A DNA stretch of 47,910 bases from a bacterium (lineage in GTDB: Bacteria; Bacteroidota; Ignavibacteria; UBA10030). How positions within the stretch are numbered: position 1 is the stretch's first letter; each line of letters opens with the position of its first letter. Position numbers and translations under genes: made by a program. Of the stretch, positions 7,873 to 39,272 are shown piece by piece. Under the pieces are notes generated by a model that was not told the origin of the DNA, made no database searches, and saw only the letters and a list, made by a program, of their open reading frames with translations. The DNA is taken from contig QYQB01000043.1 in the NCBI GenBank assembly GCA_007280275.1, positions 1 through 47,910 of the forward strand. Direction: 5' to 3'.

Positions 7873-9303
7873 TTGTGCCCCAAAGGTACCCAAGTGGCGA
7901 TACATTACTCCAAATATGGCCGGGTTTTTGACCTCTTGCCTGAAATGATCCTGATTGTGGACGCCGATCAGGTGATCGTCGACCATAATACTGCTGCCGC
8001 AGAGGGAACAGGATTTGCCTCATCGGATCTCTTGCACAGTTCGCTGGATCTCATACTTCCCGCCGAGCAACGAAGAGTCCTGATGAGCATTCTGAAGACG
8101 AACTTCAGTGATCAGTCTCTCGAGACGAAGTTTATCCGGTTCGATAAGTCCATTCTGGATGTCCAGATCGATTTGAGGAAACTGTACTCTGCCGAACGCT
8201 TTTACTTCGTGCTCATCGCCAAGGATATCACGGAGCAGAAGAAGCGGGAGCTCGACCACCTCAGGTTTTCGAACGTTATTCAGCATACCGTCAATCCCAT
8301 TCAGATCACCGATGCCAGCGGGAAAATGGTATACGTCAATCCCGCATTCGAGACAGCAAGCGGCTACACGAAAGAAGAGCTCTTGGGAAGGAATCCCAGG
8401 ATCCTGAACAGCGGCAGGCATTCGAGGGATTTCTGGAAGTCAGTCTGGGAGTATATCTCGCAGCGGAAGGTGTGGGTTGGCGAAATTGAGAATCGGCGAA
8501 AGGATGGAAGTCCTTTCCACACGGAACTTGTCATATCACCGATCGTGGATGGAAGCGACCACATCGTGGGTTTCATGGGGGCTCACCGGGACATCACCGA
8601 GCAGCGGATTCTCGAGCAGCAACTCGTCCGTTCTCAAAAAATGGAAAGCATAGGAACGCTGGCCGCCGGCATCGCCCACGAGGTGGGAAATCCACTGACC
8701 TCGATCTCATCGCTCGTCCAGGTCATCCAGCGCACGACGGCCGATGAGTTCGCAAAGGACAAGCTGGGCCTCATCAAGGACCAGATCAACCGAATCGCGC
8801 GGATCATCCGTGACCTGGTCGATTTCTCCCGTCCATCTGCGTACGTCATAAAGCCAACGGATGTAAACAAGGTTGTGCGTGAGGCGTTGAACATCGTTCA
8901 GTACGGCAAGAAGGTGAAAGACATCGCCTTTACCCTCGAGCTCGCGGACGACCTGCCCAGCCTCTCGGTCGTTCCGGACCAGCTCGCCCAGGTCTTCATC
9001 AACATCCTGATGAACGCTGTTGATTCCCTCGAAGGAAAACCCGGCTCGATCTGGATCCAGTCCCGGTCGAACGCAGAGCATGTCGAAGTGGTGGTTAAGG
9101 ACACGGGGAAGGGCATTGATCCGGGGGATCGCGAGAAAATCTTCGAGCCGTTCTTCACGACGAAAACTGTTGGACAGGGAACGGGGCTCGGGCTGTGGGT
9201 CAGCTATGGAATCGTAGAGAGCTTCGGCGGCGACATCGAATTGGAAAGTGATTTGGGGAGAGGGAGCACATTCAAGATCAAGCTACCGTTAAAAGGAGAG
9301 TGA
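7873..9303 (+). CDS. PAS-domain sensor histidine kinase
   Basis: Two PAS-like regions (TDASGKMVYVNPAFETASGYTKEELLGRNPRIL), H-box GIAHEVGNPLTSISS, catalytic motifs DTGKGIDPGDREKIFEPFFTTK and GTGLGLWVSYGI. Exact start uncertain. Confidence 0.92.
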   Translation: MCPKGTQVAIHYSKYGRVFDLLPEMILIVDADQVIVDHNTAAAEGTGFASSDLLHSSLDLILPAEQRRVLMSILKTNFSDQSLETKFIRFDKSILDVQIDLRKLYSAERFYFVLIAKDITEQKKRELDHLRFSNVIQHTVNPIQITDASGKMVYVNPAFETASGYTKEELLGRNPRILNSGRHSRDFWKSVWEYISQRKVWVGEIENRRKDGSPFHTELVISPIVDGSDHIVGFMGAHRDITEQRILEQQLVRSQKMESIGTLAAGIAHEVGNPLTSISSLVQVIQRTTADEFAKDKLGLIKDQINRIARIIRDLVDFSRPSAYVIKPTDVNKVVREALNIVQYGKKVKDIAFTLELADDLPSLSVVPDQLAQVFINILMNAVDSLEGKPGSIWIQSRSNAEHVEVVVKDTGKGIDPGDREKIFEPFFTTKTVGQGTGLGLWVSYGIVESFGGDIELESDLGRGSTFKIKLPLKGE

Positions 9304-9311
9304 GAGAGTCG

Positions 9312-10679
9312 ATGGCAGAGCGCATACTTGTTGTTGATGATGAACAGATTATTCGCGAATCGCTCGGATTTGTCCTGAAGAAGGAGGGATACCAGGTTGA
9401 GGAAGCCCCGAACGGGAAGGAAGCTCTGGCAAAACAGGAAGCCCGTCCGTTTGATGTGGTCATCTCCGATATTGAAATGCCGGAGATGCGCGGGATGGAA
9501 TTGCTCGAGCACATTACGAAGCGGACGCCGCAGACGTTCGTCATCATGATCACTGCCTTCGCATCGATCGAAACAGCGGTCGCGTCCTTGCGCAAAGGGG
9601 CGTATGATTACGTTTTAAAACCGATCGACTTTGACGACATCCTGCACCGGCTCCGGAAGCTGCTGGACCATCGTGCCTTGTCGCTCGAGAACTCTTTGCT
9701 CCGCCAGGAGATCAATAGAACGTTTGACTTCGACCAGATTATCGGTCAGAGCCAGAGCATGAAGAGTGTCTTTCAGATCATCAAGACCGTTGCAGAAAGT
9801 GACGGTACTGTCCTGATCACCGGAAAAAGCGGTACCGGAAAAGAACTGGTCGCCAGGGCTCTCCACTACAACAGCAAACGGAAGTTGAAGCGATTCGTGG
9901 CGATCAATTGCGGTGCAATCGTCGAGACCCTCTTCGAAAGCGAGCTCTTTGGACACAAAAAAGGCTCCTTCACCGGTGCGACAACGGACAAGGAAGGGCT
10001 CTTCAAAGTGGCCGATGGCGGGAGCGTCTTCCTCGATGAAGTGAGCGAGATCCCTCTGCACCTTCAGGTCAAGCTCCTTCGGGCCATCGAGCAGAAGGAA
10101 GTCATCCCGGTCGGATACACTGACCCGGTCACGATCGACGTGCGGATCATCGCCGCGACAAACAGGGATCTCCGTCTGGAGGTCGAGAACGGAAAATTCA
10201 GAGAGGATCTGTTCTATCGGCTCAATGTGGTGGAAATCGATCTCCCGTCATTGGCGGGGAGAAAGGAAGATATTCCGCTCCTGTGTCAGCATTTCCTCGA
10301 AGCCTTCAGAAAGCACATGGGTCGACCCATTCAAGGTTTTTCAAACGAAGCCATGAGCGCGATGATGCAGTACCAGTGGAAAGGCGAGGTCCGGGAGCTC
10401 GAGAACGTCATTGAGCGAGCTGTGATATTCTGTGACAAAGAGTTCATCGGACTCGAGCATTTGCCTGACTATTTCCGGCAGATGACCTCGCAGCATTCCT
10501 CGTTGCTCGCGGGCGGGCACCAGATGCTCCGGGATGCGGTCAAGGCATTCGAACGAACCTATATCGAACAGGTGCTCGCACAACACGAGCGCAACAAGGA
10601 AGCAACAGCCCAGGCACTCGGCGTTAGCCTCTCGTCGCTGTACAGGAAGATGGAAGAGCTCGAAATCCCGACGAGGTGA
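9312..10679 (+). CDS. Sigma-54-dependent response regulator (NtrC family: receiver, AAA+, Fis-type HTH)
   Basis: MAERILVVDDEQIIRESL receiver; Walker A GKSGTGKE; GSFTGA loop; C-terminal HTH ATAQALGVSLSSLYRKMEEL. ORF overlaps the HK stop codon, suggesting co-transcription. Confidence 0.95.
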   Translation: MAERILVVDDEQIIRESLGFVLKKEGYQVEEAPNGKEALAKQEARPFDVVISDIEMPEMRGMELLEHITKRTPQTFVIMITAFASIETAVASLRKGAYDYVLKPIDFDDILHRLRKLLDHRALSLENSLLRQEINRTFDFDQIIGQSQSMKSVFQIIKTVAESDGTVLITGKSGTGKELVARALHYNSKRKLKRFVAINCGAIVETLFESELFGHKKGSFTGATTDKEGLFKVADGGSVFLDEVSEIPLHLQVKLLRAIEQKEVIPVGYTDPVTIDVRIIAATNRDLRLEVENGKFREDLFYRLNVVEIDLPSLAGRKEDIPLLCQHFLEAFRKHMGRPIQGFSNEAMSAMMQYQWKGEVRELENVIERAVIFCDKEFIGLEHLPDYFRQMTSQHSSLLAGGHQMLRDAVKAFERTYIEQVLAQHERNKEATAQALGVSLSSLYRKMEELEIPTR

Positions 10680-10867: not shown

Positions 10868-10883
10868 TGGCACGCTCCTTGCA
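10868..10883 (+). promoter_or_regulatory. Sigma-54 promoter (-24/-12)
   Basis: TGGCACG-ctcc-TTGCA, matching the consensus TGGCACG-N4-TTGCW, 72 bp upstream of the 10955 ATG. Confidence 0.85.
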
Positions 10884-10954: not shown

Positions 10955-11215
10955 ATGGAGCGAGCTAGAATGCAATCGTCAGGATCGTCAGAAGGGCTGG
11001 TTGCGGGTAATCTGAAAGATTCCGTACGCACGTATGAACGTGCATTGATCATCGACTCGTTGCGAGTCAATGGTAATGACAAGCGCAAAGTATCCAAACT
11101 GCTTGGAATCAGTCTCTCGTCGTTGTACCGGAAGCTGCGTGAGCTTTCGATCGAAGATTTGGAAGAAGGTCACGAAGGCGAGCACGCAACTGAGTTCACT
11201 TCTGCCATGAGTTAA
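10955..11215 (+). CDS. Small stand-alone Fis-type HTH protein
   Basis: 86 aa; NDKRKVSKLLGISLSSLYRKLRELSIED resembles the C-terminal HTH of the adjacent NtrC-type regulator; RBS aggagg. Confidence 0.8.
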   Translation: MERARMQSSGSSEGLVAGNLKDSVRTYERALIIDSLRVNGNDKRKVSKLLGISLSSLYRKLRELSIEDLEEGHEGEHATEFTSAMS

Positions 11216-11821: not shown

Positions 11822-12271
11822 ATGGAAGCGAGCAAGAATCAACTGGCAGAGCACATGGCGGACCTTACCTACGAGCTTCTGGAGAACTGCCAGATCAAGA
11901 TCGAGCGTACGGCCCACAAACTCAATCTCACCGTAGCCGAGTTCAAGCTGCTTCGCTCGATTCAAGACGGAGAGAAATTGTCAGCTGGGAGTCTCGCAAA
12001 GCGACTCGGGCTTTCGAGCAGCCGCATCACGAGGATCATCGATGGACTCGTAAAGAAAGAAATGGTCAGGAAGGATGCGGGAGGCAACGATCGCCGCGTG
12101 GTGGATGTTCAACTGACCCCCATCGGAGTGGATACGCGAAACCAGCTCAAGGATATGTACACAAGCGTTCATCGGGATATCATCGATCTCCTGCCTTCCG
12201 ATGCCGGTGAATCAGTCTTGCTCGCCATGGAAAAACTCCGCGAGGCAACACACGAGTGGGTTAAGCAGTAA
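11822..12271 (+). CDS. MarR-family transcriptional regulator
   Basis: 149 aa; wHTH LSAGSLAKRLGLSSSRITRIIDGLVKKEMVRKDAGGNDRRVVDVQLTPIG. Confidence 0.88.
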   Translation: MEASKNQLAEHMADLTYELLENCQIKIERTAHKLNLTVAEFKLLRSIQDGEKLSAGSLAKRLGLSSSRITRIIDGLVKKEMVRKDAGGNDRRVVDVQLTPIGVDTRNQLKDMYTSVHRDIIDLLPSDAGESVLLAMEKLREATHEWVKQ

Positions 12272-12736: not shown

Positions 12737-14917
12737 ATGAGGCGTTTGCTTTCTGTCTGTGTTCTGCTGCTTATGGTATGCCTTGCGTTTACAGACGCAT
12801 ATTCTCAAGCAGTGGACCTGAAGGTCGTGGCGATGTCTCCCGGTCTCCGGAGCAGCGGCTATCCGAGCTTCTCGTCTCCAGCTGCAGGTACGCCCAATTA
12901 TGTCTCCACGGGACTCAGGACCGTTGGTAAAGGCATGAAGGTGTACCTGAAGGCCGATACAGTCGGCTCAGGTGCGACAAAAGTAACAACTTATGCATGG
13001 ACATTTGTGTCCAAGCCGCCAGGATCCACGGCAGCGTTCAGCGATGCAGCAAAGGATTCCGTGACATTTATCCCGGACGTTACAGGTCAGTACATCGTTC
13101 AGGTTGCTGTAAACGGCGCCGCGAAGACTCACGTTGACACAATTACGGCCAGCACCTATCGCGGTATCACCACTTTGGTGCAGTCGTGCCCCTGTCATGC
13201 CGGCTCTGCCACCTTCCTGAATTCCTACAGCAACTGGAAGACCACGAAGCACGCAACGATCTTCGCGCGTGGGATGACTGGCCAGCTTGAGAATTCAGAA
13301 GGCACCCATTACAAAGGTGTGTACACGAAAAGTTGCTTCAAATGTCACACGACCGGATGGGAATCTCTGACGAACAACGGAAACTTTGGCTACCTCGCAA
13401 ACACAGGTGCCACAGCCACACCGCCAACGTCGTTTGACTCCACGTGGTACAAAGGTCTTCCTTTGGAAGGCGGCGACTACCTGATTCCGTTCCAGGATTC
13501 CACGCTCTACAAGAAGCTTTCACCTCAAATGCTGGCGGTTGGCAGCATAGGCTGCGAAAGCTGCCACGGCCCGGCAGATGACCATGCGACGACCGCCGAC
13601 AAGAAGAAGATCAGTGTTACGGCTGATGCGGGCGTCTGCAACCAGTGCCACGAATCTCCGAAGGGGCATTCGCTTGGATATTTCTGGAGAGGCTCGACAC
13701 ACTCCACCATGAAGACCAGTGCCGCTGAAGCGAGTCGCAATTCGTGCTGGCCATGTCATAACGGAACGGCGTTCATTTCGTTCACGAATGCATGGGCAGC
13801 CGGACGAAAGACGACATCTGCTGATTCAGCGAAAGTTGATCCAACTTTTCAATCGATATCGTGCTCAGTCTGCCACGATACACATGGCAGTTCGAACGAA
13901 CACCTTCTCCGCTACACAAAGATCGATACACTTATCAACGGGTACAAAGTACCCGCGGGTGTAGGTGGATTTGGTCAAATGTGCATGAACTGTCACCGCG
14001 CGCGTAACAACTCGGTGACCCAAGTGAAGGGTCAGATGGGAAAATTCGGCGACCGGTTCTATCCGCACTATAGTCCTCAAGCTGATATGTACCTCGGAAC
14101 CAATGCTTGGGAATTTGGACTCAAGCTTGAAGGACTGAATACGCACGGCGGACTGAAGAATGGCTGCGTTACATGTCATATGTCCGAACGGATGGTTGTG
14201 CCGAACTACACGAAGGTTCAATCTGATCACGGCATGTCGATGGCGGAGAATGGCGTTGACAAAGTCGAAGGATGCGTCGAGTGTCACGGTGCTATCAAGT
14301 CGTTCAAGGACATCAAAGCGTCATTCGACTACGATGGCGATGGCCAGGTCAAAAGTGCCGTTGAGGAAGTGGCTGGACTAATGGCAAAGCTGAAGGCCAA
14401 GTTACCTGTAGATGCGACAGGTGAGCCGGTCACGATGGCGGCGGATTCGATGCTCGTTAGGAACTTCGCTACCACGAACAAGGTGAGCTACTCCACGCTG
14501 ATCGCGTCGTTGTTCAACTACAATTATGTTTCTCACGACATGAGCCTGGGTATCCACAACACGAAGTACACAGTGGCGATCCTTCGGGCCTCACTCGGAT
14601 TGGTGACCGGCGTCGAAATGGATCCATTGCCGATTCCCAAAACGTTCGAGCTGAGCCAAAACTATCCGAACCCCTTCAATCCGACGACCGAAATCCGCTT
14701 CGACATTCCGAAGTCATCGAGCGTCAAGGTGGTGGTCTATGATATCATGGGCCGGGTGGTCAGGACGCTGGTCGATCAGAAGATGGAAGCCGGTTCACAC
14801 CGGATTTCATGGAATGGTCGCGATCTGGCTGGCAACACTGTCTCCAGCGGGGTTTACTTCTATCACATCAGTGCTGACGGATTCGCAGCCACGAAGAAGA
14901 TGACCTTGATGAAGTAG
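12737..14917 (+). CDS. T9SS-secreted multiheme cytochrome c (8 CxxCH + 1 CxCH)
   Basis: Signal peptide; CPCH, CFKCH, CESCH, CNQCH, CWPCH, CSVCH, CMNCH, CVTCH, CVECH; T9SS CTD LSQNYPNPFNPTTEIRFDIP...SGVYFYHISADGFAATKKMTLMK. Confidence 0.92.
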   Translation: MRRLLSVCVLLLMVCLAFTDAYSQAVDLKVVAMSPGLRSSGYPSFSSPAAGTPNYVSTGLRTVGKGMKVYLKADTVGSGATKVTTYAWTFVSKPPGSTAAFSDAAKDSVTFIPDVTGQYIVQVAVNGAAKTHVDTITASTYRGITTLVQSCPCHAGSATFLNSYSNWKTTKHATIFARGMTGQLENSEGTHYKGVYTKSCFKCHTTGWESLTNNGNFGYLANTGATATPPTSFDSTWYKGLPLEGGDYLIPFQDSTLYKKLSPQMLAVGSIGCESCHGPADDHATTADKKKISVTADAGVCNQCHESPKGHSLGYFWRGSTHSTMKTSAAEASRNSCWPCHNGTAFISFTNAWAAGRKTTSADSAKVDPTFQSISCSVCHDTHGSSNEHLLRYTKIDTLINGYKVPAGVGGFGQMCMNCHRARNNSVTQVKGQMGKFGDRFYPHYSPQADMYLGTNAWEFGLKLEGLNTHGGLKNGCVTCHMSERMVVPNYTKVQSDHGMSMAENGVDKVEGCVECHGAIKSFKDIKASFDYDGDGQVKSAVEEVAGLMAKLKAKLPVDATGEPVTMAADSMLVRNFATTNKVSYSTLIASLFNYNYVSHDMSLGIHNTKYTVAILRASLGLVTGVEMDPLPIPKTFELSQNYPNPFNPTTEIRFDIPKSSSVKVVVYDIMGRVVRTLVDQKMEAGSHRISWNGRDLAGNTVSSGVYFYHISADGFAATKKMTLMK

Positions 14918-14942
14918 CTCTGTTCCAAGCACCAGTCTTAGA

Positions 14943-14977
14943 AAAGAAGCCCTGGCAGATCTGTCAGGGCTTCTTTT
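14943..14977 (+). terminator. Rho-independent terminator
   Basis: aaagaagccctg-gcagatctgt-cagggcttcttttt. Confidence 0.9.
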
Positions 14978-15344
14978 TGTTCTTCAGATCTGCCACCTTG
15001 AACCACGATCCTTCACTGACCCGCATCCAGTCCTGTTTCCTTCGCACTTACACTGGTTTCACGAAACCGTTCTTAGACTTGTAGAAATTTGCAGCGACGC
15101 AGACATAAAGAGAATTCTTACACAATGCTACAAGGATGCGGGCCATGATGTTGTGCATCTCAACACATATGTCCCATTCCCCTTGTTTCATTGGGGAAAA
15201 GCGAACTATTCTTCTTGTCAGAAGTTGGAATGAATGCGAACTCAAGTTGGCAATGATAGGAAACAACAGCCCTTTAATTGCTTGATGTTTGTCAATTTTC
15301 GTCAATTCTGGCACTATCTGGGGGGTTCCAATTTGTAGCCTTTG

Positions 15345-15360
15345 CGGCATAGGAATTGCG
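15345..15360 (+). promoter_or_regulatory. Candidate sigma-54 promoter
   Basis: CGGCATA-ggaa-TTGCG; GG and GC at correct -24/-12 spacing; 134 bp upstream of the 15494 ATG. Confidence 0.55.
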
Positions 15361-15493
15361 GGTTTTCAAGTTCAACAACTTATGGAGCTTTTCACATTGA
15401 TGTCTTATTATCACGTATTCGGCCCCGCAAAACAGAGCTTATTCGGCAACCTGATTTCTCAATGACGCAGTGCACACCTTTGAGGGAGGTACC

Positions 15494-18397
15494 ATGAAGA
15501 GATTTCTACTTGGCTTTATTGTTCTGGCAGCATTGATCTGCATCCTCGCTTTGCCCGTTTTGGCACAGATCCAGACGGCAAAGATCTCCGTGGTTAGTGT
15601 CCCGGATCGTTTCAAGGCTGCAAATAAGAACCAATCAACGACCGGCCTGAAATCAGTTGGCGTTGGAAGCCGTGTTGTGCTGGCCCCCATCGTATTCTCA
15701 GGCAACGGTGGAAAGTACGCAGACACGCTTCTCACGGTCACGAGTGCGACGTGGACTCTGAAGAGCCCGTACGGCGCGACAAAGACTATCCAGGACACGG
15801 CTGCCGGTTTGAATGGCAAGATTGTCTATTTCGTCCCCGACACAGTGGGCGACTGGACCGTGACGATGACGGCAACGACTGCGAAGGGTGCTGCATCGCA
15901 AGTGACAACGACAATCGTAGCAGCCAAGTTCATCGGCGCTGGAATCACGATGCAGGCGAACCAGAACGTTCCGAATGGTTGCGCGTGCCATCTTGTGAAC
16001 ACAACCAATTTTACCGATTGGTCAAAGTCGAACCATGCGACGGCTGTGAAGCGCAAGCTCAACGACGCGGCCGGTCACTTCAGCTTCAGCTGCTTCTCCT
16101 GCCACTCCGCTGGGTATGATGGACTGACCTCCAGCGGCAACAACGGATTTGATGATGTGGCAGCGGCAGAGAAATTCACAACGGTTTCGAAAAATGCTCC
16201 TGGAGTATTTGACTCTCTGACGACCCTTTATCCGAAGTCGATGTCGTTGACCGGGATCCAGTGCGAGAATTGCCATGGTCCAGCGGGTCAGCACACTGCA
16301 GCCTTCCCAGTAGCGGGCAACAACAAGTTGGATGAGACGCTCTCATCAAACGTATGCGCCCCGTGTCACTTCTCCTCTGATCGCCATGGAATCGGATATG
16401 CATGGTCAGCTTCTGCGCACGCCATTTCGACGACAGAAGGAATCCAGACGCAATACACCGATCGTCCGATTTGCGCACGCTGCCATACCGCCCAGGGCTA
16501 CATCAATGAAGTAGTCGGTAGTAAAGCCCAGCCGGTTCCGGCTACTGGCGATCTGGTGTATGCCAATCCAATGCCCATCGGATGCTCTACCTGCCATGAT
16601 CCGCACAATGGCTCAAATGAGATGCAACTGCGTGCAAAGACGATCGGCGATGCTTGCGTCGGTTGCCACATTACGCGCATGAGTAGCCGTGGTTTGCACA
16701 CTGCACATCAAGGTTCGATGTTGATCGGAACAAACACGGCCTCATTCAGTCTGGATGTCGCGAATGCCTACCTGCTCGCTCCGTCAGGCTCGGTCCAGCA
16801 GAACAATGCCGCAGTTGGTACGTGGGGGGGATGGGAACTCCCTGGCTACACATATGAGAACTCCTCGCACAGCGATATCAAGGAGCGATGCGTCGCGTGC
16901 CATATGGCGAGTTCTCCTTCATACCTTGCTGCATCTGCATCGAACTTCACAAAAGCCGACACAATGCTGACCAAACTTGGGCGGCATACGTTCAAGGTCG
17001 CGTATGAGAATATCGTCGGCCAGGACACGACGACGATTCTGAATCCTACCGGCTGCGACGAGTGCCACGGAACGGTGTCCATCGAATTTGTCGAGTCAAC
17101 CCAGGCGAAGACCGATAAACTACTTGCAAGCCTGTATGCTGCGTTGCCAAAACGGGATACGATCATCAGTGCAATCAATCCCACCGGTACGCCGATCCTC
17201 TTCACCGACACAATCACGTGGCAAAACAATTCAAAGCTTCCTCTGACCTCGAAACGCAAGCTTTCGGTCGTTGAGCGCGCGGCTGCCTACAATCTGCAGT
17301 TCGTTCGTAACGATGGTAGCGGTGGCGTGCACAACTACAACTATTCAAAGGGCCTTCTCAACTCCTCGCTCGAGCAGGTGAAGCTCGGCGCCGGAGCGTC
17401 CTCAATCTCCTCGATCAAAGACGTGCCGGTTGATAACGGCAAGAAGGTCCAGGTTGTCTGGTCCGCCTTCCCGGCAGAGACGTATAGCTTCAACCAGGTG
17501 ATCAATTATGGAGTGTGGAGAAAAGATCCGATTCTGCCCAGCCTCAATTCGGTTAAGAAGGCCGGCAGTTTCACGGAAATGATGAGCACAACGAGCCAGG
17601 GCGGCCAGGTTGTTCTGGGCGGCAGCGTTTGGTCATACGTTGGCTCAGTCCCTGCATCTGGAATGGCACAGTATTCATTCCTGGCTTCGACACTCTTCGA
17701 TTCCACGAAAACCTCAGGTCAGCGGTGGACAGTTTTCTATGTTGCCGGCTACACCAAGGACAACCAGGTCATGTTTTCGAGCCAGCCCGACAGCGGATAC
17801 TCGGTGGACAACCTCGCTCCGGCTGTTCCATCAGGCTTGAATGCCTCGTTCTCGAAGAACACCGTTACATTGAAGTGGACGGCGAATGTTGAGAGCGACG
17901 TGTATCAGTACGCGATCTATCGTGGAACAACATCAACCTTCAACCCGGCGGGTACCACGCCTTTGGCGAAGGTTCGTACACCTCTCTATCAGGATCCGGT
18001 TTCTCAGAGCGGTGTGACGTACTACTACAAGGTCTCTGCACTCGATATCGCGGGTAACGAGAGCGGATACACCAGCGTGAGTGTGCTCACAGATGTCCAG
18101 AACGGCAGCGGTCTGCCGACGGAATTCGCGTTGAACCAGAACTTCCCGAATCCGTTCAACCCGACGACAGAAATCGCATTCTCGGTGCCGAAACAAACCC
18201 CTGTCAAGGTCGTGATCTACGGCTTGTCCGGAGAGGTTGTTGCGACAGTCGTGAATCAGACGATGTCTGCCGGCAATTACCGTGTCACGTGGAATGGCAA
18301 AACCGACGACGGTCGTGCTGTGGCAAGCGGTGTCTACTTCTACCATTTGCAGGCGGACGGATTCACTGCAACGAAGAAAATGACATTGCTGAAGTAA
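15494..18397 (+). CDS. T9SS-secreted multiheme cytochrome c (8 CxxCH + 1 CxCH) with FnIII-like domain
   Basis: ATG after gggaggt RBS; signal peptide; CACH, CFSCH, CENCH, CAPCH, CARCH, CSTCH, CVGCH, CVACH, CDECH; CTD LNQNFPNPFNPTTEIAFSVP...KKMTLLK. Confidence 0.93.
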   Translation: MKRFLLGFIVLAALICILALPVLAQIQTAKISVVSVPDRFKAANKNQSTTGLKSVGVGSRVVLAPIVFSGNGGKYADTLLTVTSATWTLKSPYGATKTIQDTAAGLNGKIVYFVPDTVGDWTVTMTATTAKGAASQVTTTIVAAKFIGAGITMQANQNVPNGCACHLVNTTNFTDWSKSNHATAVKRKLNDAAGHFSFSCFSCHSAGYDGLTSSGNNGFDDVAAAEKFTTVSKNAPGVFDSLTTLYPKSMSLTGIQCENCHGPAGQHTAAFPVAGNNKLDETLSSNVCAPCHFSSDRHGIGYAWSASAHAISTTEGIQTQYTDRPICARCHTAQGYINEVVGSKAQPVPATGDLVYANPMPIGCSTCHDPHNGSNEMQLRAKTIGDACVGCHITRMSSRGLHTAHQGSMLIGTNTASFSLDVANAYLLAPSGSVQQNNAAVGTWGGWELPGYTYENSSHSDIKERCVACHMASSPSYLAASASNFTKADTMLTKLGRHTFKVAYENIVGQDTTTILNPTGCDECHGTVSIEFVESTQAKTDKLLASLYAALPKRDTIISAINPTGTPILFTDTITWQNNSKLPLTSKRKLSVVERAAAYNLQFVRNDGSGGVHNYNYSKGLLNSSLEQVKLGAGASSISSIKDVPVDNGKKVQVVWSAFPAETYSFNQVINYGVWRKDPILPSLNSVKKAGSFTEMMSTTSQGGQVVLGGSVWSYVGSVPASGMAQYSFLASTLFDSTKTSGQRWTVFYVAGYTKDNQVMFSSQPDSGYSVDNLAPAVPSGLNASFSKNTVTLKWTANVESDVYQYAIYRGTTSTFNPAGTTPLAKVRTPLYQDPVSQSGVTYYYKVSALDIAGNESGYTSVSVLTDVQNGSGLPTEFALNQNFPNPFNPTTEIAFSVPKQTPVKVVIYGLSGEVVATVVNQTMSAGNYRVTWNGKTDDGRAVASGVYFYHLQADGFTATKKMTLLK

Positions 18398-18410
18398 TTC
18401 GATCACGGAT

Positions 18411-18433
18411 GCCCCGCCCGAACCGGGCGGGGC
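18411..18433 (+). other. GC-rich hairpin between tandem cytochrome genes
   Basis: gccccgccc-gaacc-gggcggggc, no poly-U; may attenuate or stabilise mRNA. Confidence 0.65.
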
Positions 18434-18496
18434 GTCTCTTACTCACAAAGGAATTTTGTGTCGCACCTCAAATCGAATACCCAAGAGGGAGGTTGT

Positions 18497-21388
18497 ATGA
18501 AGAGATTTTTACTCACTGCTACAGTGCTTGTGGTACTGATTTCGGTACTCGCAGGTCTGGCGCTTGCGCAGACAGTGCAGTCTGGAAGGGTTAAAGTGGT
18601 TGCTGTCCCCGACCGTTACAAGGCTGCGAACAAGAATCAATCAACGACTGGGTTGAAGACAGTCGGACAAGGTCAGCGTATTGTCCTTGCGCCGCAAATA
18701 TGGTTGAACCAGGGGACAAAGCAGGCAGACACGCTTGTCCCGGCTCTCTCCGCTACGTGGACCCTCACCAATCCTTACGGAACGGCGAAGACAATTCAGG
18801 ATACGGCGACCGGACTCAATGGTACGTACGTCTATTTTGTCCCCGACACCGTTGGGGACTGGACAGCGTCCTATTCGGCAACCACAAAGTTAGGGTCCGT
18901 GGCAGGCACCGGAAAGATCACCGTCGCAAAGTTTGTTGGCGTGGGAATCTCGATGGTCTCCACTCAGGGCGTGCCGAACGGTTGCGCTTGTCACCTCGTC
19001 GAACCAACGAAATTCTCAGATTGGTCGAAGACCAACCATGCTACCGCAGTGAAGCGCAAACTGAATGACCCGACCGGGCACTTCAGTTTCAGCTGCTTCT
19101 CCTGCCATTCGATAGGTTATGATGGCGTCCCCACCGCCGGCAACAACGGTTTTGACGATGTTGCTGCGGCGGAGAAGTTTGCCACAGTGTCGAGGAATGC
19201 AGTTGGTGTGTTTGACTCGCTGAAGACACTCTATCCAAAGTCGATGGCATTGACCGGAATCCAGTGCGAAAACTGCCACGGCCCCGCAGGACAGCACGTT
19301 GCAGGAATGCCCGTTCCAGGAAACAACAAGCTTGACGAAACATGGTCGCCGGAAGTTTGTGCACCTTGCCATTTCTCAAGCGACCGACATGGTATTGGCT
19401 ATGCCTATACTGCTTCACGTCACTTCACGTCAAGCTCGAACGGGAGCACCCGCGTTAACAACTTCAATCGTCTCTTGTGCGCTCGCTGCCATACCGGCCA
19501 GGGATATGTATATGAGAAGATTCAAGGCAAGATGCAGACTGTTCCCGCCACCGGAGAAGTTGAATACGTTGGTGGCACGTCTATGACCTGCGTAACCTGC
19601 CACGATCCGCACAATGGATCCAACGATAAGCAGCTTCGTGCGAAATCGGTTGGCGAGTCTTGCCTCGGCTGCCACGTTATCCGTTTGGGCACGGGTGGTT
19701 CCTTGCATACATCCCATCAGGGTTCGATGCTACTTGGTGCGAACCTGACACCATTCGGCACGGACGCGCTGAATGCCTACACATCGACGCCTTCAGGGAC
19801 TCCTCAGCAGGTCGTCGCAGCAGTCCAGACGTTGGGTGGATGGCAGTTGCCCGGCTATGTCTATGAGAATTCTTCTCACAGCGATATCAAAGAGATGTGC
19901 GTGAAGTGTCACATGGCAAGTTCACCTTCGTTCCTGGCAGCTTCGGCTTCCAACTTTACGAAGGCAGACACGATGATGACAAAGCTTGGCGGTCACACCT
20001 TCAAAGTTGCATATGACAATATCGTCGGCAAAGACACCACTACGATTCTCAATCCGACGGGGTGCGAAGAGTGCCACGGCGAGGCTTCGATCGAGTTTGT
20101 GGATCTCACCCAGGCAAAGACGAAAACTCTGCTGGCGAACTTGTTCAAAGCGCTGCCAAAGCGAGACTCCGCTGGCGTTACGATAAGCTCAATGAGTGAC
20201 ACGGTTGCCTACCAGAACTGGGCAAAGGCTCCCGCCGCACTGAAGCGCAAACTCACAACGATTGACAAGGCATCTATCTTCAACTACAACTTTGTCAACA
20301 ACGATGGAAGCTTCGGTGTACACAACTTCAACTATGCGAAAGGTCTTTTGACTTCTTCGCTGGAGCAGGTGACGCTCGGTGCCGGTGCATCAAGCATCGC
20401 ATCGATCAAAGATGTACCGCTCGACAACGGCAAAAAGGTCCAGGTTGTGTGGAACGCCTTCCCGTCAGAATATTACAGCTTCAACCAGATTGTCAATTAC
20501 GGTATCTTCAGAAAAGATCCGACGCTCCCGAGTCTCAATTCGATCAAGAAGGTCGGAAGCTTCACGGAACTGATGCAGACGACCAAGGTCGGCGGATCGG
20601 CCCTCATGGCTGGCACAGTGTGGACTTATGTCGGCTCAGTGCCGGCCTCAGGATTGACGCAGTATTCCTACATTGCTCCGACGATCTTCGATTCAACGAA
20701 GACCTCGGGTCAGCGGTGGACGACGTTCTATATCGCTGGCTACACGGGGGCGAGCACGGTTGCGTTCTCAACGCAGGCTGACAGCGGTTACTCAGTTGAC
20801 AACATTGCTCCTGCTTCTCCGAGCGGCACATCAGCCTCGTTCCTGAATAACGTGGTGACGTTGAAGTGGACCGCCAGCCCAGAAGATGATGTGTCCCAGT
20901 ATGCAATCTACAGAGGAACGGCAGCTAATTTCAATCCTGCCGGGACCACACGGTTGGCAACAGTGCGCACGTCACAGTACCAGGATGCAGTGTCGCAGAG
21001 CGGCGTGACATACTACTACAAGATTTCGGCGATTGATTTTGCTGGCAACGAGAGCGGCTGCACCAGCGTTAGCGTGCTCACAGATGTCCAGAACGGCAGC
21101 GGTCTGCCGACGGAATTCGCGTTGAACCAGAACTTCCCGAATCCGTTCAACCCGTCCACAGAGATCGCCTTCGCCGTGCCGAAACAGACTGCGGTCAAGA
21201 TCGTGATCTATGGTCTCTCCGGTGAGGTTGTTGCCACGCTCGTGAATCAAACGATGGCGGCTGGCAACTACCGTGTTACCTGGAACGGCAAGACCGACGA
21301 TGGTCGGGCAGTCGCCAGCGGTGTCTACTTCTACCATCTGCAGTCAGAAGGATTCACTGCAACGAAGAAGATGACATTGTTGAAGTAA
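18497..21388 (+). CDS. T9SS-secreted multiheme cytochrome c, tandem paralogue of the preceding gene (8 CxxCH + 1 CxCH)
   Basis: ATG after gggaggt; CACH, CFSCH, CENCH, CAPCH, CARCH, CVTCH, CLGCH, CVKCH, CEECH; same architecture and T9SS CTD. Confidence 0.93.
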   Translation: MKRFLLTATVLVVLISVLAGLALAQTVQSGRVKVVAVPDRYKAANKNQSTTGLKTVGQGQRIVLAPQIWLNQGTKQADTLVPALSATWTLTNPYGTAKTIQDTATGLNGTYVYFVPDTVGDWTASYSATTKLGSVAGTGKITVAKFVGVGISMVSTQGVPNGCACHLVEPTKFSDWSKTNHATAVKRKLNDPTGHFSFSCFSCHSIGYDGVPTAGNNGFDDVAAAEKFATVSRNAVGVFDSLKTLYPKSMALTGIQCENCHGPAGQHVAGMPVPGNNKLDETWSPEVCAPCHFSSDRHGIGYAYTASRHFTSSSNGSTRVNNFNRLLCARCHTGQGYVYEKIQGKMQTVPATGEVEYVGGTSMTCVTCHDPHNGSNDKQLRAKSVGESCLGCHVIRLGTGGSLHTSHQGSMLLGANLTPFGTDALNAYTSTPSGTPQQVVAAVQTLGGWQLPGYVYENSSHSDIKEMCVKCHMASSPSFLAASASNFTKADTMMTKLGGHTFKVAYDNIVGKDTTTILNPTGCEECHGEASIEFVDLTQAKTKTLLANLFKALPKRDSAGVTISSMSDTVAYQNWAKAPAALKRKLTTIDKASIFNYNFVNNDGSFGVHNFNYAKGLLTSSLEQVTLGAGASSIASIKDVPLDNGKKVQVVWNAFPSEYYSFNQIVNYGIFRKDPTLPSLNSIKKVGSFTELMQTTKVGGSALMAGTVWTYVGSVPASGLTQYSYIAPTIFDSTKTSGQRWTTFYIAGYTGASTVAFSTQADSGYSVDNIAPASPSGTSASFLNNVVTLKWTASPEDDVSQYAIYRGTAANFNPAGTTRLATVRTSQYQDAVSQSGVTYYYKISAIDFAGNESGCTSVSVLTDVQNGSGLPTEFALNQNFPNPFNPSTEIAFAVPKQTAVKIVIYGLSGEVVATLVNQTMAAGNYRVTWNGKTDDGRAVASGVYFYHLQSEGFTATKKMTLLK

Positions 21389-22861: not shown

Positions 22862-22877
22862 TGGCACGAGAGTTGCG
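22862..22877 (+). promoter_or_regulatory. Sigma-54 promoter (-24/-12)
   Basis: TGGCACG-agag-TTGCG, 69 bp upstream of the 22946 ATG of the first gene in the cytochrome array. Confidence 0.85.
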
Positions 22878-22945
22878 AGAAATGAGTTGAAATTATATGT
22901 TCCATTCGATTGTTGACAAATTCAGCAGTTCGTGAACTTACGAAA

Positions 22946-25135
22946 ATGAGACCTGATTTGAAGCTTCCTCACCCGATTGTCTGGTTTTTCGTCCTCGTTT
23001 TCTTCTCGTTGCAGGCACTAGCCCAGACCCGAGAAGATTGCCTGACGTGTCACAGCGATTCTTCTCTGGCGATGGAGAAGAAAGGCAAACAAGTCCCTTT
23101 GTTTGTCAACGCGGCTATGCTGGAAAAATCCACCCATCGGAAGTTGGTTTGCGTTGCTTGTCACGCAGGCTTTGATGCTCAGAATGTCCCCCACAAAGAA
23201 AGAATCCAACCCGTCAACTGCCTGACGTGCCATAAGGATGCGCCGCTGAAGCATCGGTTCCATCCGCAGATGAATCTCGCAGGCGGAACGAACGGCAAGT
23301 CGGATGTCTCATGCAAAGAGTGTCATGGCACTCATGCTGTCGTCTCTCCGAAATCTCCCGGTTCAAAGTTCAACTCGGCAAAGCTGAGTGAGTTCTGTGG
23401 GTCGTGTCACAAGGATGTGAAGGAAACGTTTTCACAATCATCCCATGCGCACGCTCAGGTGTCGGGAATTCTGGGCGCACCGACGTGCATTGACTGTCAT
23501 CGAAACCCGATCGTTCACGTCACAGCAAAACAGGATACGACGGAGTTCAAGGTCGCGCAGGACAAACTCTGTCTCTCGTGCCACCTCGATGATCCAAATG
23601 TCCGGGCGCGGATGTCCCCTTCGACAGGATTCATCGGCGCATATGAGGGAAGCGTCCACGGATCAGCGCTGCAGCGTGGTAATGGAAACGCCGCAAACTG
23701 TGTGGATTGCCACGGCAGTCATGAGATGAAGAAGGGGGTGGATCCGACGTCCCGCGTTGCGAAGGCGAATATCCCTCAGACATGTGCCAAGTGCCACTCC
23801 GATGTCGCAAAGGCGTTCAGCTACAGCGTCCACGGTCTTGCCGTCAAGAACGGAAACATGTCGGCCCCCGTGTGCACAGATTGCCATGGTGAGCATAACA
23901 TTCTTAATCACAAGGACCCTCGCTCGCCGGTTGCTGCAGGCAATGTCTCAAGTCAGGTATGCTCCCCCTGCCATAGCTCTGTGAAGCTCAATCAGAAGTA
24001 TGGTCTTGCGAATGACCGTTTCAAGAGCTTCGCTGACAGCTACCACGGGTTGGCCGGCACGGCCGGCTCCGTACAGGTTGCCAACTGCGCCAGTTGTCAT
24101 GGTGTCCATGATATCAAGCCTTCGAGCGATCCAACCTCCCGCATCAGCAAAGCCAATCTCATCAATACTTGCGGGACGTGCCATCCCGGGGCGAACGAGA
24201 ACTTCACAAAGGGTTCCGTCCACGTCATCGCGACTGAGAAGCAAGAAGATGTGCTCTATTATGTCTCCACCACCTATATCATTCTCATCATCGTCCTCAT
24301 CGGTGGTATGCTTCTCCACAACCTGCTCGACTTTGTCAAGAAATCGAAGCGTCAACTCATGTATCGACGCGGCCTGATTCCACGGCCGCCGGTGGCACAC
24401 CGGTTGTACCTGCGGATGTCGCTGAACGAGCGCCTCCAGCACGCGTCCCTGGTGATCAGCTTCTTCACTCTCGTGTTCACCGGCTTTGCTCTGAAATATC
24501 CGGAAGCGTGGTGGGTGACACCGATTCGGAATATCAGTCCTCTGATGTTCGACCTGCGCGGAATTCTGCATCGGATTGCAGGCGTTGTGATGGTTGCGGC
24601 GAGTCTGTTCCATGTTTATTACGTTCTCTTCGTGCCCCGGGGAAAGCAGTTAATTCGTGATCTGCTTCCCAAAATCGAGGACGTGACCGATGCGATCGGT
24701 ATTCTGAAGTACAATCTCGGTTTCTCGCCGGTCAAACCGAAATTCGGGAGGTTCAGCTACATCGAGAAGAGCGAGTATTGGGCGCTGGTATGGGGAACGA
24801 TGGTGATGGCGGCGACCGGAGTCATCCTCTGGTTTGATAACACGTTCCTCGGGCTCCTGACGAAGCTATGGTGGGACGTGGCACGCACCGTCCACTACTA
24901 TGAGGCGTGGCTGGCTACCCTTGCCATTATCGTCTGGCATTTCTATTTCATCATGTTCAATCCCGATATTTATCCTATCAATCTCGCATTCTGGAAGGGG
25001 ACGCTGACAGAGGAAGAGATGGAAGAAGAACATCCGCTTGAGCTGGAAGAGATCCGTCACGCCGAAATGAAGGCGGCCCTGAGGAATCAAACTGAGCCCG
25101 AGAAGGAATCGGCATCTGTAGGGGCCAAAGAATAG
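22946..25135 (+). CDS. Multiheme cytochrome c (13 CxxCH) fused to a C-terminal b561-like membrane domain
   Basis: Signal peptide; 13 CxxCH; C-terminal TM helices with conserved His (RLQHASLVISFF, LHRIAGVVMVAASLFHVYYV, VHYYEAWLATLAIIVWHFYF). Confidence 0.9.
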   Translation: MRPDLKLPHPIVWFFVLVFFSLQALAQTREDCLTCHSDSSLAMEKKGKQVPLFVNAAMLEKSTHRKLVCVACHAGFDAQNVPHKERIQPVNCLTCHKDAPLKHRFHPQMNLAGGTNGKSDVSCKECHGTHAVVSPKSPGSKFNSAKLSEFCGSCHKDVKETFSQSSHAHAQVSGILGAPTCIDCHRNPIVHVTAKQDTTEFKVAQDKLCLSCHLDDPNVRARMSPSTGFIGAYEGSVHGSALQRGNGNAANCVDCHGSHEMKKGVDPTSRVAKANIPQTCAKCHSDVAKAFSYSVHGLAVKNGNMSAPVCTDCHGEHNILNHKDPRSPVAAGNVSSQVCSPCHSSVKLNQKYGLANDRFKSFADSYHGLAGTAGSVQVANCASCHGVHDIKPSSDPTSRISKANLINTCGTCHPGANENFTKGSVHVIATEKQEDVLYYVSTTYIILIIVLIGGMLLHNLLDFVKKSKRQLMYRRGLIPRPPVAHRLYLRMSLNERLQHASLVISFFTLVFTGFALKYPEAWWVTPIRNISPLMFDLRGILHRIAGVVMVAASLFHVYYVLFVPRGKQLIRDLLPKIEDVTDAIGILKYNLGFSPVKPKFGRFSYIEKSEYWALVWGTMVMAATGVILWFDNTFLGLLTKLWWDVARTVHYYEAWLATLAIIVWHFYFIMFNPDIYPINLAFWKGTLTEEEMEEEHPLELEEIRHAEMKAALRNQTEPEKESASVGAKE

Positions 25136-25139
25136 GATC

Positions 25140-27173
25140 ATGAAGCCTCTCGCACGCTTGAAAATTCATAGTACCTTGAAGTGCCATCGGCTCATTGTAC
25201 GATCGTTCTGGCTTATTGTTTTCGCGGGCTTGTGGCTGGCTCCGGCGTTCGGTCAGGAGAACACCGAATGTCTCGGTTGTCACAGCGACAAATCCCTTGA
25301 AGGGACCCGCAAAGGCAAGAAGTTCTCGGTTTTTGTCGATGAGAAGAAGTTCGGCCAGTCGATGCACTCTGCTCTTACGTGCGTTTCATGCCACGCTGAC
25401 CTTGCCGGCAAGGAACTACCTCACGCGGAAGGCCTTCAGAAAGTAGAATGTGGAACCTGCCACTCGGCCGAGCAGGAGCTGCATACAAAATCGCTTCACG
25501 GCAAAGCGATTGCACGAGGCGACGCCCTGGCCCCGCATTGCAACGATTGCCACGGCAACCACAATATACTCTCCTCGAAAGACCAGCGTTCACCGATCTC
25601 GCCGCTCCAGATCCCATTCCTGTGTGGGAAATGCCACCAGGAAGGATCGCTGGTGACCGCTCAGCGCACGATTCACCAGGATCATATTCTGGAGAATTTC
25701 TCTGAGAGTATCCACGGTCAGGCCCTCTTCCAGAAGGGATTGATTGTCGCGCCCAACTGCGCTTCGTGCCATACGCCGCATTCAATTCTTCCTCACACTG
25801 ATCCGGCGTCGTCGATTGCCAGGGGGAACATCTCCAAGACGTGCACGAAATGTCATGCGCAGATCGAGATTGTACACCGCAAGGTCATTCGCGGGGAGCT
25901 CTGGGAAAAACAGGCGCACACGCTGCCCGCGTGTATAGATTGTCATCAACCCCACAAGATACGGAAGGTCTTCTACACGCAGGGGATGGCGGATAAGGAT
26001 TGCCTCCGCTGCCACGAGAACAGGAACCTCAAGTCGTCGAAGGACGGCCGGTCACTCTACGTGCAGGGGGAACAGCTTGGGTTTTCACGACACTCGAAAG
26101 TCTCGTGCAGCCAATGCCATTCCGAAGTCAGCGTTTCGCGCCTTCGTCCATGCGAGACGATCACGAAAAAAGTGGACTGCTCATCCTGTCACGCCGAGCT
26201 CGCGCAGCAGTATCAGGTTAGCACGCATGGGAAGATGGCCGCGAAAAATGACCCCAACGCCCCGACGTGCAAGGAATGTCACGGTACACATCTCGTACTC
26301 GGAAAGCTGAGTCCAAATTCCGCAACCTTCGCAACGAATGTCCCACTCCTGTGTGCGAAGTGCCATCGGGAAGGACAGAAAGCGGCCGTCCGCTACACCG
26401 GCTCCCAGCATGAGATCATCGAGCACTACACCGAAAGCATCCACGGCAAAGGGTTGATGAAGAGCGGGCTGACAGTGACGGCAACGTGCACCAGCTGCCA
26501 CTCTGCCCACAGCGTGTTGCCGAAGAGCGATTCGCTCTCAAGCGTGAATCCAAAGAATGTTCCTCAGACCTGCGGGCGGTGTCATCACGGGATTCAAGAA
26601 CAATTCGAATTGAGCATCCACGCGGTCCTGGTTGGGAAGACCGACAAACCGTTGCCGGTGTGCAACGATTGCCATACAGCGCATACCATCCGGCGTGCGG
26701 ATGAAACAGGATTCAAGCTTCAGATCATGTCTCAATGCGGAAGGTGTCACGAGGCAATCGCAAAGACATACTTCGATACCTACCACGGGAAAGTATCTCA
26801 GCTTGGCTACACTAAAACAGCGAAGTGCTATGATTGTCACGGCGCTCATGACATCCTTCCAATTTCCGACTCCCGCTCGCACCTGAGCAGAGAAAAGGTT
26901 GTCGGCACATGTCAGAAGTGCCATTCCGGAGCCAACCGGCGGTTTGCAGGGTACCTGACGCACGCGACGCATCACGATCCGGAGAAATATCCGTTTCTCT
27001 TCTGGACGTTCTGGGGTATGACTTCGTTGTTGGTCGGCACATTTGTTCTTGGCGGCGTGCATACGCTCCTCTGGTTGCCTCGTGCTCTTCAGATGCAGCG
27101 CCAGCGCCGCAGGGAGTCTGGGCAACAGAACCAGGGAGACAAAGGAGAGCATGGAGACAACAGCAAAGCCTGA
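25140..27173 (+). CDS. Multiheme cytochrome c (19 CxxCH) with C-terminal TM anchor
   Basis: 19 CxxCH counted; signal peptide; C-terminal helix FLFWTFWGMTSLLVGTFVLGGVHTLLWLP. Confidence 0.92.
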   Translation: MKPLARLKIHSTLKCHRLIVRSFWLIVFAGLWLAPAFGQENTECLGCHSDKSLEGTRKGKKFSVFVDEKKFGQSMHSALTCVSCHADLAGKELPHAEGLQKVECGTCHSAEQELHTKSLHGKAIARGDALAPHCNDCHGNHNILSSKDQRSPISPLQIPFLCGKCHQEGSLVTAQRTIHQDHILENFSESIHGQALFQKGLIVAPNCASCHTPHSILPHTDPASSIARGNISKTCTKCHAQIEIVHRKVIRGELWEKQAHTLPACIDCHQPHKIRKVFYTQGMADKDCLRCHENRNLKSSKDGRSLYVQGEQLGFSRHSKVSCSQCHSEVSVSRLRPCETITKKVDCSSCHAELAQQYQVSTHGKMAAKNDPNAPTCKECHGTHLVLGKLSPNSATFATNVPLLCAKCHREGQKAAVRYTGSQHEIIEHYTESIHGKGLMKSGLTVTATCTSCHSAHSVLPKSDSLSSVNPKNVPQTCGRCHHGIQEQFELSIHAVLVGKTDKPLPVCNDCHTAHTIRRADETGFKLQIMSQCGRCHEAIAKTYFDTYHGKVSQLGYTKTAKCYDCHGAHDILPISDSRSHLSREKVVGTCQKCHSGANRRFAGYLTHATHHDPEKYPFLFWTFWGMTSLLVGTFVLGGVHTLLWLPRALQMQRQRRRESGQQNQGDKGEHGDNSKA

Positions 27174-28050
27174 ATCGGCACATGAGGCGCACGGGATCTC
27201 CCTGGCTTCCACAGCCGAAGTTGGCGAGAGACAGTTCCTCCGATTCAAGAGACTGAATCGGATCCTTCATATTATTATGATTGTGAGTTTCATGAGTCTG
27301 GCCCTCACCGGGATGACGTTGAAGTTTGCCTACACCGGATGGGCCGCATTCCTCTCTCGGTTGTTCGGAGGTTACGAATCGGCAGGATATATCCACCGGC
27401 TCGCGGCGGTTGCCATGATTGGGATCTTTATCGCCCACATTGTCGACGTAGTGAGGATGAAGAAACGTCTCTACCCTTCGTGGCGTAGCTTGCTTCTCGG
27501 ACCTGATTCCATGGTGTTCAACAAGAAAGACCTTCAGGATTTGATCGGGAATTTCAAGTGGTTCCTGGGGCGGGGCCCCCGGCCCGAATACGGCCGTTGG
27601 ACATATTGGGAGAAGTTCGACTACTTCGCAGTCTTCTGGGGCATGGCCGTCATCGGATCGACAGGACTCATGCTTTGGTTCCCGGAGTTCTTCACACTGG
27701 TTTTTCCCGGATGGTTTCTTAATGTGGCTGGCATCATTCACAGCGATGAGGCGTTGTTGGCTGTGGGTTTCATTTTTACCGTTCACTTCTTCAATACCCA
27801 CCTCCGGCCTGAGAAATTCCCAATGGATATCGTTGTGTTTACAGGCCGAATGCCCGTCGATGACCTCAAAGACGACAAGCCAGCGGAGTATCGCATGCTT
27901 GTCAAGGAAGGCATGCTGGAAGAGAACCTGGTTGAAGCGTATCCTCCCATCGTGATCCGTGCAATCCGTCTGTTCGGCTGGACAGCGCTCTGCATCGGTT
28001 TCAGTATCGTCGTTTGGATCATTTATGCTATGCTGTTTGCATACCAATAA
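27151..28050 (+). CDS. Membrane cytochrome b (b561/DHCC-like)
   Basis: ATG at 27151 overlaps the previous gene; multi-TM with His ([53 protein letters not shown]); resembles the TM part of the 13-heme protein. Confidence 0.82.
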
Positions 28051-29692: not shown

Positions 29693-30433
29693 ATGAAAAT
29701 GTTTCTGCAAAAAATGCCGGATGCTCTCAAACGAGTCCTCGCGGTGTTTGTGCTGGTGGCTGCGGCGGCAGTGCTCGTGCGCGTCGTCCTTCCTGCCTCC
29801 TTGACGGATTCGCGACTGCATATCAAGTCCACGGTCGAGCGCGAGATGGCGCACCCGGTACGGTACGCCGGTTCTGAGGCCTGCGCTGATTGCCACGAGG
29901 AATACAAGGTCAAGCAAGGGGGGTATCACAAGAATCTCTCCTGCGAGACGTGTCATGGCGCCGCGAAGGAACACTCTGAGAATCCGTCCGAGCTCAAGCC
30001 CAAGCTGCCAAGAATGAGGGAATTCTGCGCCGGCTGCCACACGTACAACCCATCCAGACCATCGGGATTTCCTCAAGTCAACCCGGCGGCGCACAATCCG
30101 CTCAAGGTATGCGTTGAATGCCATAACCCGCATGACCCGAAGCCCACAAGGACCCCGCAGGAATGTTCGGCGTGCCATGCAGAGATTGCTCGGACAAAAG
30201 AACTTTCCCCGCACGCCCAGCTGGAATGCACTAACTGTCACACTGTTCCACAGGAACACAAACTGGCACCACGGTCGGTAAGGGCAGGAATTCCATCGGA
30301 GCGCTCGTTCTGCGGCAAGTGCCATAGTAAAGATTCGGGAAGAAAAGAAGCCCCGAAGGTAGATTTCCTCACTCACGGTGAGAAGTACTTGTGCTGGCAG
30401 TGCCACTATCCACATATGCCGGAGGTGCAATAG
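29693..30433 (+). CDS. Octaheme cytochrome c (8 CxxCH)
   Basis: N-terminal TM/signal; CADCH, CETCH, CAGCH, CVECH, CSACH, CTNCH, CGKCH, CWQCH. Confidence 0.88.
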   Translation: MKMFLQKMPDALKRVLAVFVLVAAAAVLVRVVLPASLTDSRLHIKSTVEREMAHPVRYAGSEACADCHEEYKVKQGGYHKNLSCETCHGAAKEHSENPSELKPKLPRMREFCAGCHTYNPSRPSGFPQVNPAAHNPLKVCVECHNPHDPKPTRTPQECSACHAEIARTKELSPHAQLECTNCHTVPQEHKLAPRSVRAGIPSERSFCGKCHSKDSGRKEAPKVDFLTHGEKYLCWQCHYPHMPEVQ

Positions 30434-30434
30434 C

Positions 30435-38022: not shown

Positions 38023-38029
38023 AAACCTT

Positions 38030-39262: not shown

Positions 39263-39272
39263 GCGGAAACCT

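Follow-up and report, generated by a model that had tools for sequence, protein, structure and literature searches.

Three genes (P1, P2 and P3) in a 47,910-nucleotide stretch of DNA, here called the window, probably encode Gram-negative relatives of the cell-surface reductase OcwA that are exported by the type IX secretion system (T9SS) and act as terminal reductases in an extracellular electron-transfer pathway. The DNA derives from an uncultured Ignavibacteria-related bacterium whose genome comprises 3.7 Mb in 338 contigs (84% complete). Ignavibacteria and their relatives have been reported from anodes and iron-rich environments, and the known cargo of the T9SS includes enzymes, adhesins and gliding proteins. 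The cytochrome family and the secretion system are each already known separately, and what appears new is their pairing. In the open-access literature searched, no earlier report of a multiheme cytochrome exported by the T9SS was found, and "type IX secretion" never occurred there together with "multiheme" or "multi-heme"; most subscription papers lay outside this scope, and an earlier description is possible. A Melioribacter multi-omics study, checked for expression of family members, did not cover multiheme cytochromes. Domains, architecture, homology, synteny, promoter-like elements and T9SS genes were read from sequence and comparison, which confirmed the observation behind the original prediction for this DNA but supported its interpretation only in part.

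Cytochrome family and domain architecture

Eight CxxCH motifs and one CxCH were counted in each of the three translations, as had been predicted and far above chance (at most 0.02 CxxCH on average, and a maximum of 1, in shuffled P1-P3). The three reading frames were found where they had been placed, but their products, described at the time as giant, are better called large (Table 1). The predicted N-terminal Ig-like region was recovered as an Ig/PKD-like domain on the strength of a weak match to PF22352, a match of the family profile to the PKD domain of KIAA0319L, and a beta-rich AlphaFold model. Signal peptides were read directly from the N-termini of P1-P3, and the model of P1 (mean pLDDT 83.6) has a helix at residues 2-21. 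P2 and P3 likely start at ATG 15494 and ATG 18497, each with a signal peptide after it, the listed GTG starts lying slightly upstream. These two are tandem copies with 70% identity; P1 shares about 26% identity with them, rising to about 60% in the tail, and forms a distinct subfamily in the tree. At the window edge (241-6210), a 1989-aa protein with about ten fibronectin-III/Ig-like domains carries its own TIGR04183 tail (32 bits) and is another predicted T9SS cargo.

A profile of 58 family members, searched against the PDB, matched OcwA best (6i5b, 8e-37), colinearly with the OcwA hemes, followed by a Carboxydothermus ferrireducens cytochrome (6qvm, 3e-27), NrfA (2e-12), and then the octaheme nitrite reductase 8rv0, MccA and c554. 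By this profile evidence, P1-P3 are OcwA-type nonahemes of the NrfA/c554 superfamily. OcwA, from Thermincola potens, is a nonaheme protein that works at the cell surface as a terminal reductase (Costa et al. 2019, PMC6703420). Six of its hemes (1, 3, 4, 6, 7 and 8) have bis-His ligation, heme 9 has His/Met ligation, and the open hemes 2 and 5 each have a His above them; its substrates include iron oxides, shuttles, nitrite and hydroxylamine. Across 167 members, the nine motif His are accompanied by nine other invariant or near-invariant His (172, 283, 311, 322, 383, 444, 470, 498 and 607 in P1 numbering), a number that fits seven distal ligands plus two active-site His. H311 (kept in 144/167) and H444 (166/167) align with the pockets of OcwA hemes 2 and 5, and P1-P3 perhaps have two equivalent open hemes. 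The invariant H470 has an aligned His in NrfA but none in OcwA, and heme 9 of this family may therefore be bis-His.

Sequence profiles identified the family; Foldseek on the P1 model, tried for the same purpose, matched sensibly only the Ig-like and C-terminal domains. The fold of the heme domain was thus not confirmed structurally, as Foldseek matched beta domains and its top AlkC matches, with TM-scores near 0.1, are noise. The proteins had been described as unlike MtrC/OmcA lipoproteins and OmcS-type filaments. This description was right, but the OcwA-type identity had been missed: P1-P3 have no lipobox and no match to the OmcA/MtrC decaheme model TIGR03507 (PF22113 matched partially, over CxxCH stretches of P1 and P3 only), and no OmcS, OmcE or OmcZ chain appeared among the PDB matches of two family profiles.

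Predicted type IX export and the spacing of heme site 1

The predicted export of P1-P3 by the T9SS is well supported at the level of sequence, because the tails score over the cut-off, the C-terminal fold is of cargo type, and SprA, PorU and PorV are encoded in the genome. The sorting domain, predicted as PNPFNP-type, exceeded the curated TIGR04183 cut-off of 23 bits in all three proteins (45.3 for P1, 36.8 for P2 and 34.7 for P3), and PF18962 was over its own cut-off in P1 only. In Foldseek, the C-terminal fold of the P1 model matched PorU (6za2), PorZ (5m11), the RemZ/RemA C-terminal domain (CTD) in T9SS translocon structures (8gl8/8gl6) and the mirolase CTD (8qb1). About 100 TIGR04183 matches were found genome-wide, together with SprA (present in each of the 13 genomes searched, with full-length copies in several), PorU (823 bits) and about 14 PorV-family proteins over the cut-off.

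Nearly all members from Bacteroidota, Ignavibacteriota, KSB1, Calditrichota, Kryptoniota and Fidelibacterota have a T9SS tail. The exceptions are five rows sampled from the window's phylum and a single named row from Ignavibacteriota; contig ends or stops visibly shorten several of these. The culturable Stygiobacter electus has a tailed homologue with CX2CH (locus L092). No member from Acidobacteriota, Chloroflexota, Verrucomicrobiota, Myxococcota, Planctomycetota, Sumerlaeota or Geomonas has one. As the tail is found in T9SS-bearing phyla and absent elsewhere, the heme domain looks like a unit that many lineages share and the tail like a local delivery solution. Eight members from Verrucomicrobia and similar lineages (L078, L083, L084, L099, L104, L128, L136 and L137) share a ...FFRV/FYRV... 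C-terminus in place of the tail, possibly another surface-anchoring signal. In several phyla, genes for a second kind of multiheme protein, with 7-9 CxxCH and a T9SS-like tail, adjoin the family genes (L072:12636-14528, L073:12494-14248, L074:7520-10555, L080:13266-16349 and L097:9156-10733).

The CxCH of P1-P3 is homologous to an ordinary CxxCH of most relatives. Among the 167 members, this site is CX2CH in 134, CX1CH in 24, CX3CH in 5, CX4CH in 3 and CX5CH in 1, and its Cys pair, motif His and distal His are retained in 167/167. Truncated rows left aside, the other eight sites combined have a single CX4CH, a single CX1CH and one lost site. The site-1 columns were left out when the tree was built, and on this tree the spacing changed at least 13 times; well-supported branches force seven changes for CX1CH (gains or losses), and a single CX1CH clade was rejected (p-AU 3.6e-7). 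Relatives with neither CX1CH nor CX2CH might be taken to have lost heme 1, a reading we rejected given that CX3CH or CX4CH is present. Members with CX4CH at site 1 (L094, L139 and L114, of Sumerlaeota) have no T9SS tail, and in one protein (L193:1000-3216) two motifs are contracted, site 1 being CFCH and site 9 CTCH. With spacings that run from CX1CH to CX5CH at a single homologous position, the family offers a natural experiment on the flexibility of heme attachment.

Putative electron-transfer locus and its regulation

Downstream of P1-P3 lies a run of cytochrome, membrane and iron-sulfur genes (Table 1), beginning with a fusion protein that we take to be CbcL-like from its architecture. L070 and L097 preserve the order of the CbcL-like, 19-heme, b561 and NrfH-like block, and the family genes also adjoin a porin, 14-heme cytochrome and lipoprotein set in L074 (Calditrichota), L076 (KSB1) and L101, loci with this set being known here from Calditrichota, KSB1 and BMS3Abin03. 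The model of the porin matched beta-barrels with modest scores. Two NrfE/CcmF-like heme lyase genes are present in the genome, one of them in the window; a role of the latter as a lyase dedicated to CXCH was considered and set aside. The first heme site of the NapC/NrfH-like protein is CX3CH (CGxxCH) in 11/11 homologues seen, across phyla. Porin-cytochrome complexes have already been reported in Ignavibacteria (PMC7399161). The T9SS-dependent extracellular electron-transfer pathway that had been proposed appears plausible and is strengthened by the porin-cytochrome-lipoprotein set and by synteny, but a lipoprotein outer cytochrome of a known kind coexists with P1-P3.

Table 1. Features of the window, with positions counted from its first nucleotide
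Feature	Position	Strand	Details
PAS sensor histidine kinase	7873..9303	+	Syntenic in L070, L097
NtrC-type sigma-54 activator	9300..10679	+	Response regulator; syntenic in L070, L097
Sigma-54-type element	10868..10883	+	Perfect -24/-12, TGGCAC-N5-TTGCA; counterparts L070 (7509), L097 (5120)
Fis/HTH_8-like ORF	10955..11215	+	86 aa; by eye resembles C-terminal DNA-binding part of adjacent NtrC-type protein; behind 10868 element
MarR-family regulator	11822..12271	+
P1, OcwA-type nonaheme cytochrome	12737..14917	+	726 aa; signal peptide, Ig/PKD-like domain, 9-heme domain, T9SS type A tail
P1 heme site 1	13187..13198	+	Contracted CPCH, aa 151-154
P1 T9SS sorting domain	14663..14902	+	TIGR04183
P2, OcwA-type nonaheme cytochrome	15494..18397	+	967 aa; extra region (FN3-like by eye) before T9SS tail
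P2 heme site 1	15980..15991	+	Contracted CACH, aa 163-166
P2 T9SS sorting domain	18143..18382	+	TIGR04183
P3, tandem paralogue of P2	18497..21388	+	963 aa
P3 heme site 1	18983..18994	+	Contracted CACH, aa 163 onward
P3 T9SS sorting domain	21134..21373	+	TIGR04183
Sigma-54-type element	22862..22877	+	Just before CbcL-like gene; counterparts L070 (13859), L097 (10931, as TGGCAT)
CbcL-like fusion	22910..25135	+	13 CxxCH and cytochrome b561 domain; likely start ATG 22946
19-CxxCH cytochrome	25140..27173	+	C-terminal hydrophobic helix
Cytochrome b561	27151..28050	+
NapC/NrfH-like cytochrome	28139..29629	+	6 CxxCH and one CX3CH
8-CxxCH cytochrome	29693..30433	+
4Fe-4S subunit	30378..31175	+	Real start probably inside
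NrfD-family membrane subunit	31172..32407	+
Rieske protein	32499..32957	+
Cytochrome b	32954..34033	+
11-CxxCH cytochrome	34030..35502	+	C-terminal hydrophobic helix
c554-like cytochrome	35545..36078	+	4 hemes
Outer-membrane beta-barrel	36709..38022	+	Porin of putative porin-cytochrome complex; model has signal helix and about 24 strands
14-CxxCH periplasmic cytochrome	38009..39262	+	Putative porin-cytochrome complex
Lipoprotein cytochrome	39264..40358	+	LLNSC; 7 CxxCH and 2 CX4CH; GSu_C4xC__C2xCH domain
CcmF/NrfE-family heme lyase	40425..42719	+

The kinase and NtrC-type activator upstream of P1, an RpoN gene in the host genome, and the conserved elements at 10868 and 22862 suggest that the locus is under sigma-54 control. 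With up to two mismatches, the sigma-54 motif occurs 34 times in the whole window against 26 expected, which is not a significant enrichment, and the argument therefore relies on the sites that match exactly and on how they are conserved. Within 500 nt upstream of family genes, sigma-54-type elements were found on the coding strand in 24/162 cases and on the other strand in 0/162, the expectation being 0.26 from shuffles and about 1 from local background. Directly upstream of P1-P3 themselves, only a weak match for P1 (12598) and none for P2 or P3 was detected. An Rfam scan returned no RNA family, and a sigma-70 scan no signal worth noting above shuffles.

Proposed pathway, alternatives and known systems

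From these features we infer heme loading of P1-P3 including the CXCH site, nine hemes, a surface location, partner contacts, and a direction of electron flow to an acceptor. P1-P3 would be exported to the periplasm by Sec and loaded with heme there, heme 1 being held by the contracted CXCH site, after which the T9SS would read the C-terminal type A tail and carry them across the outer membrane, an assumption being that the nine-heme domain is transported folded and fully heme-loaded. The T9SS normally removes the type A tail and then attaches or releases the protein. Quinol electrons would enter via the CbcL-like, NrfD/FeS, Rieske/b and NrfH-like modules and pass through periplasmic multihemes and the porin-cytochrome-lipoprotein conduit to P1-P3, which outside the cell would serve as terminal reductases, perhaps through two open hemes. 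Minerals, electrodes, shuttles or small oxyanions may each be the acceptor; OcwA serves several.

An alternative is that the same proteins, exported in the same way, reduce or detoxify a soluble compound outside the cell, such as nitrite, hydroxylamine, or a sulfur, arsenic or selenium oxyanion, rather than respire a mineral or electrode. Homology to NrfA, 8rv0 and MccA, retention of the active-site His H311 and H444, and the reduction of nitrite and hydroxylamine by OcwA (PMC6703420) all speak for this role. Nevertheless, such enzymes have no need to be placed outside the outer membrane, OcwA acts slowly on nitrite (PMC6703420), and the neighbouring porin-cytochrome-lipoprotein set and CbcL-like protein are typical of extracellular electron transfer; we consider a soluble-acceptor role unlikely and retain extracellular electron transfer as the preferred reading. 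Less probable still is that the tailed proteins are stranded in the periplasm by a T9SS that is incomplete without a GldLM motor. GldM (TIGR03517, PF12081) and GldL (TIGR03513) did go undetected in the host genome with the curated models, as they did (PF12081, TIGR03513) in 12-15 relatives, but the controls for these searches were silent or uninformative, which leaves absence unproven, and the core components SprA, PorU and PorV, on whose presence the original prediction depended, were found. With so much invested in SprA (13/13 genomes), PorU, about 14 PorV-family members and about 100 tailed proteins, the system is unlikely to be dead, and divergent GldL/GldM are the simpler reading.

The number of hemes is open to a similar challenge, in that site 1 may have decayed, leaving eight hemes and two Cys that form a disulfide or do nothing. 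The canonical motif is indeed altered and the site unusually tolerant of spacing, but decay would remove ligands, whereas here only the spacing changes: the Cys, motif His and distal His were never lost among the 167 members despite at least 13 changes in spacing, and CX3CH and CX4CH, both accepted heme motifs, occur at the same position. This pattern argues that heme 1 would still be attached at CxCH, and we give decay of the site only a minor chance. Moreover, a passage in PMC7096707 cites as functional a contracted CKCH in the tetraheme KsTH of the anammox organism Kuenenia (Ferousi et al. 2019), and nine hemes per chain are for this reason a better count than eight. Based on the same passage, we rejected the notion that CXCH would be an unprecedented heme motif.

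If the preferred reading of P1-P3 as T9SS-exported terminal reductases is right, the placement of respiratory cytochromes outside the cell by Ignavibacteria and their relatives, by what may be an undescribed route, becomes testable, and the question is raised of whether the T9SS can move a protein bearing nine covalent hemes. We see about an even chance that the locus represents a branch of extracellular electron transfer that is based on the T9SS and general to Bacteroidota/Ignavibacteria, KSB1, Calditrichota and relatives, with OcwA-type nine-heme cargo fed by a porin-cytochrome conduit, sigma-54 control, and one heme site that binds heme with 1-5 residues between its Cys.

Among known systems, P1-P3 most resemble OcwA, with which they share nine heme sites in the same order, His aligned with the places of its open hemes 2 and 5, a C-terminal helical segment with DGS.GVHN and, as a prediction for P1-P3, location at the cell surface. 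OcwA differs in its Gram-positive host, in having neither a T9SS tail nor an N-terminal Ig/PKD domain described, in its CxxCH rather than contracted CxCH at site 1, and in its His/Met heme 9, where the P1-P3 family has an invariant His (P1 H470) and putatively bis-His ligation. Passages in Gavrilov et al. 2021 (PMC7829351) group OcwA with Gram-negative nonahemes and tie OmhA to ferrihydrite reduction at the cell surface; these passages make no mention of T9SS tails. The distant homologue from C. ferrireducens, 6QVM, is probably OmhA, which differs from P1-P3 in its eleven hemes, Gram-positive host and lack of a T9SS. The porin, periplasmic multiheme and lipoprotein multiheme at 36709-40358 resemble the Geobacter-type OmbB-OmaB-OmcB complex; in contrast to its components, P1-P3 are additional to the conduit, are not lipoproteins and belong to another cytochrome family. 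KsTH is likewise a multiheme cytochrome that binds heme at a CXCH motif, but it is a small anammox protein, whereas the contraction in P1-P3 affects one homologous site of a nine-heme family whose relatives range from CX2CH to CX5CH.
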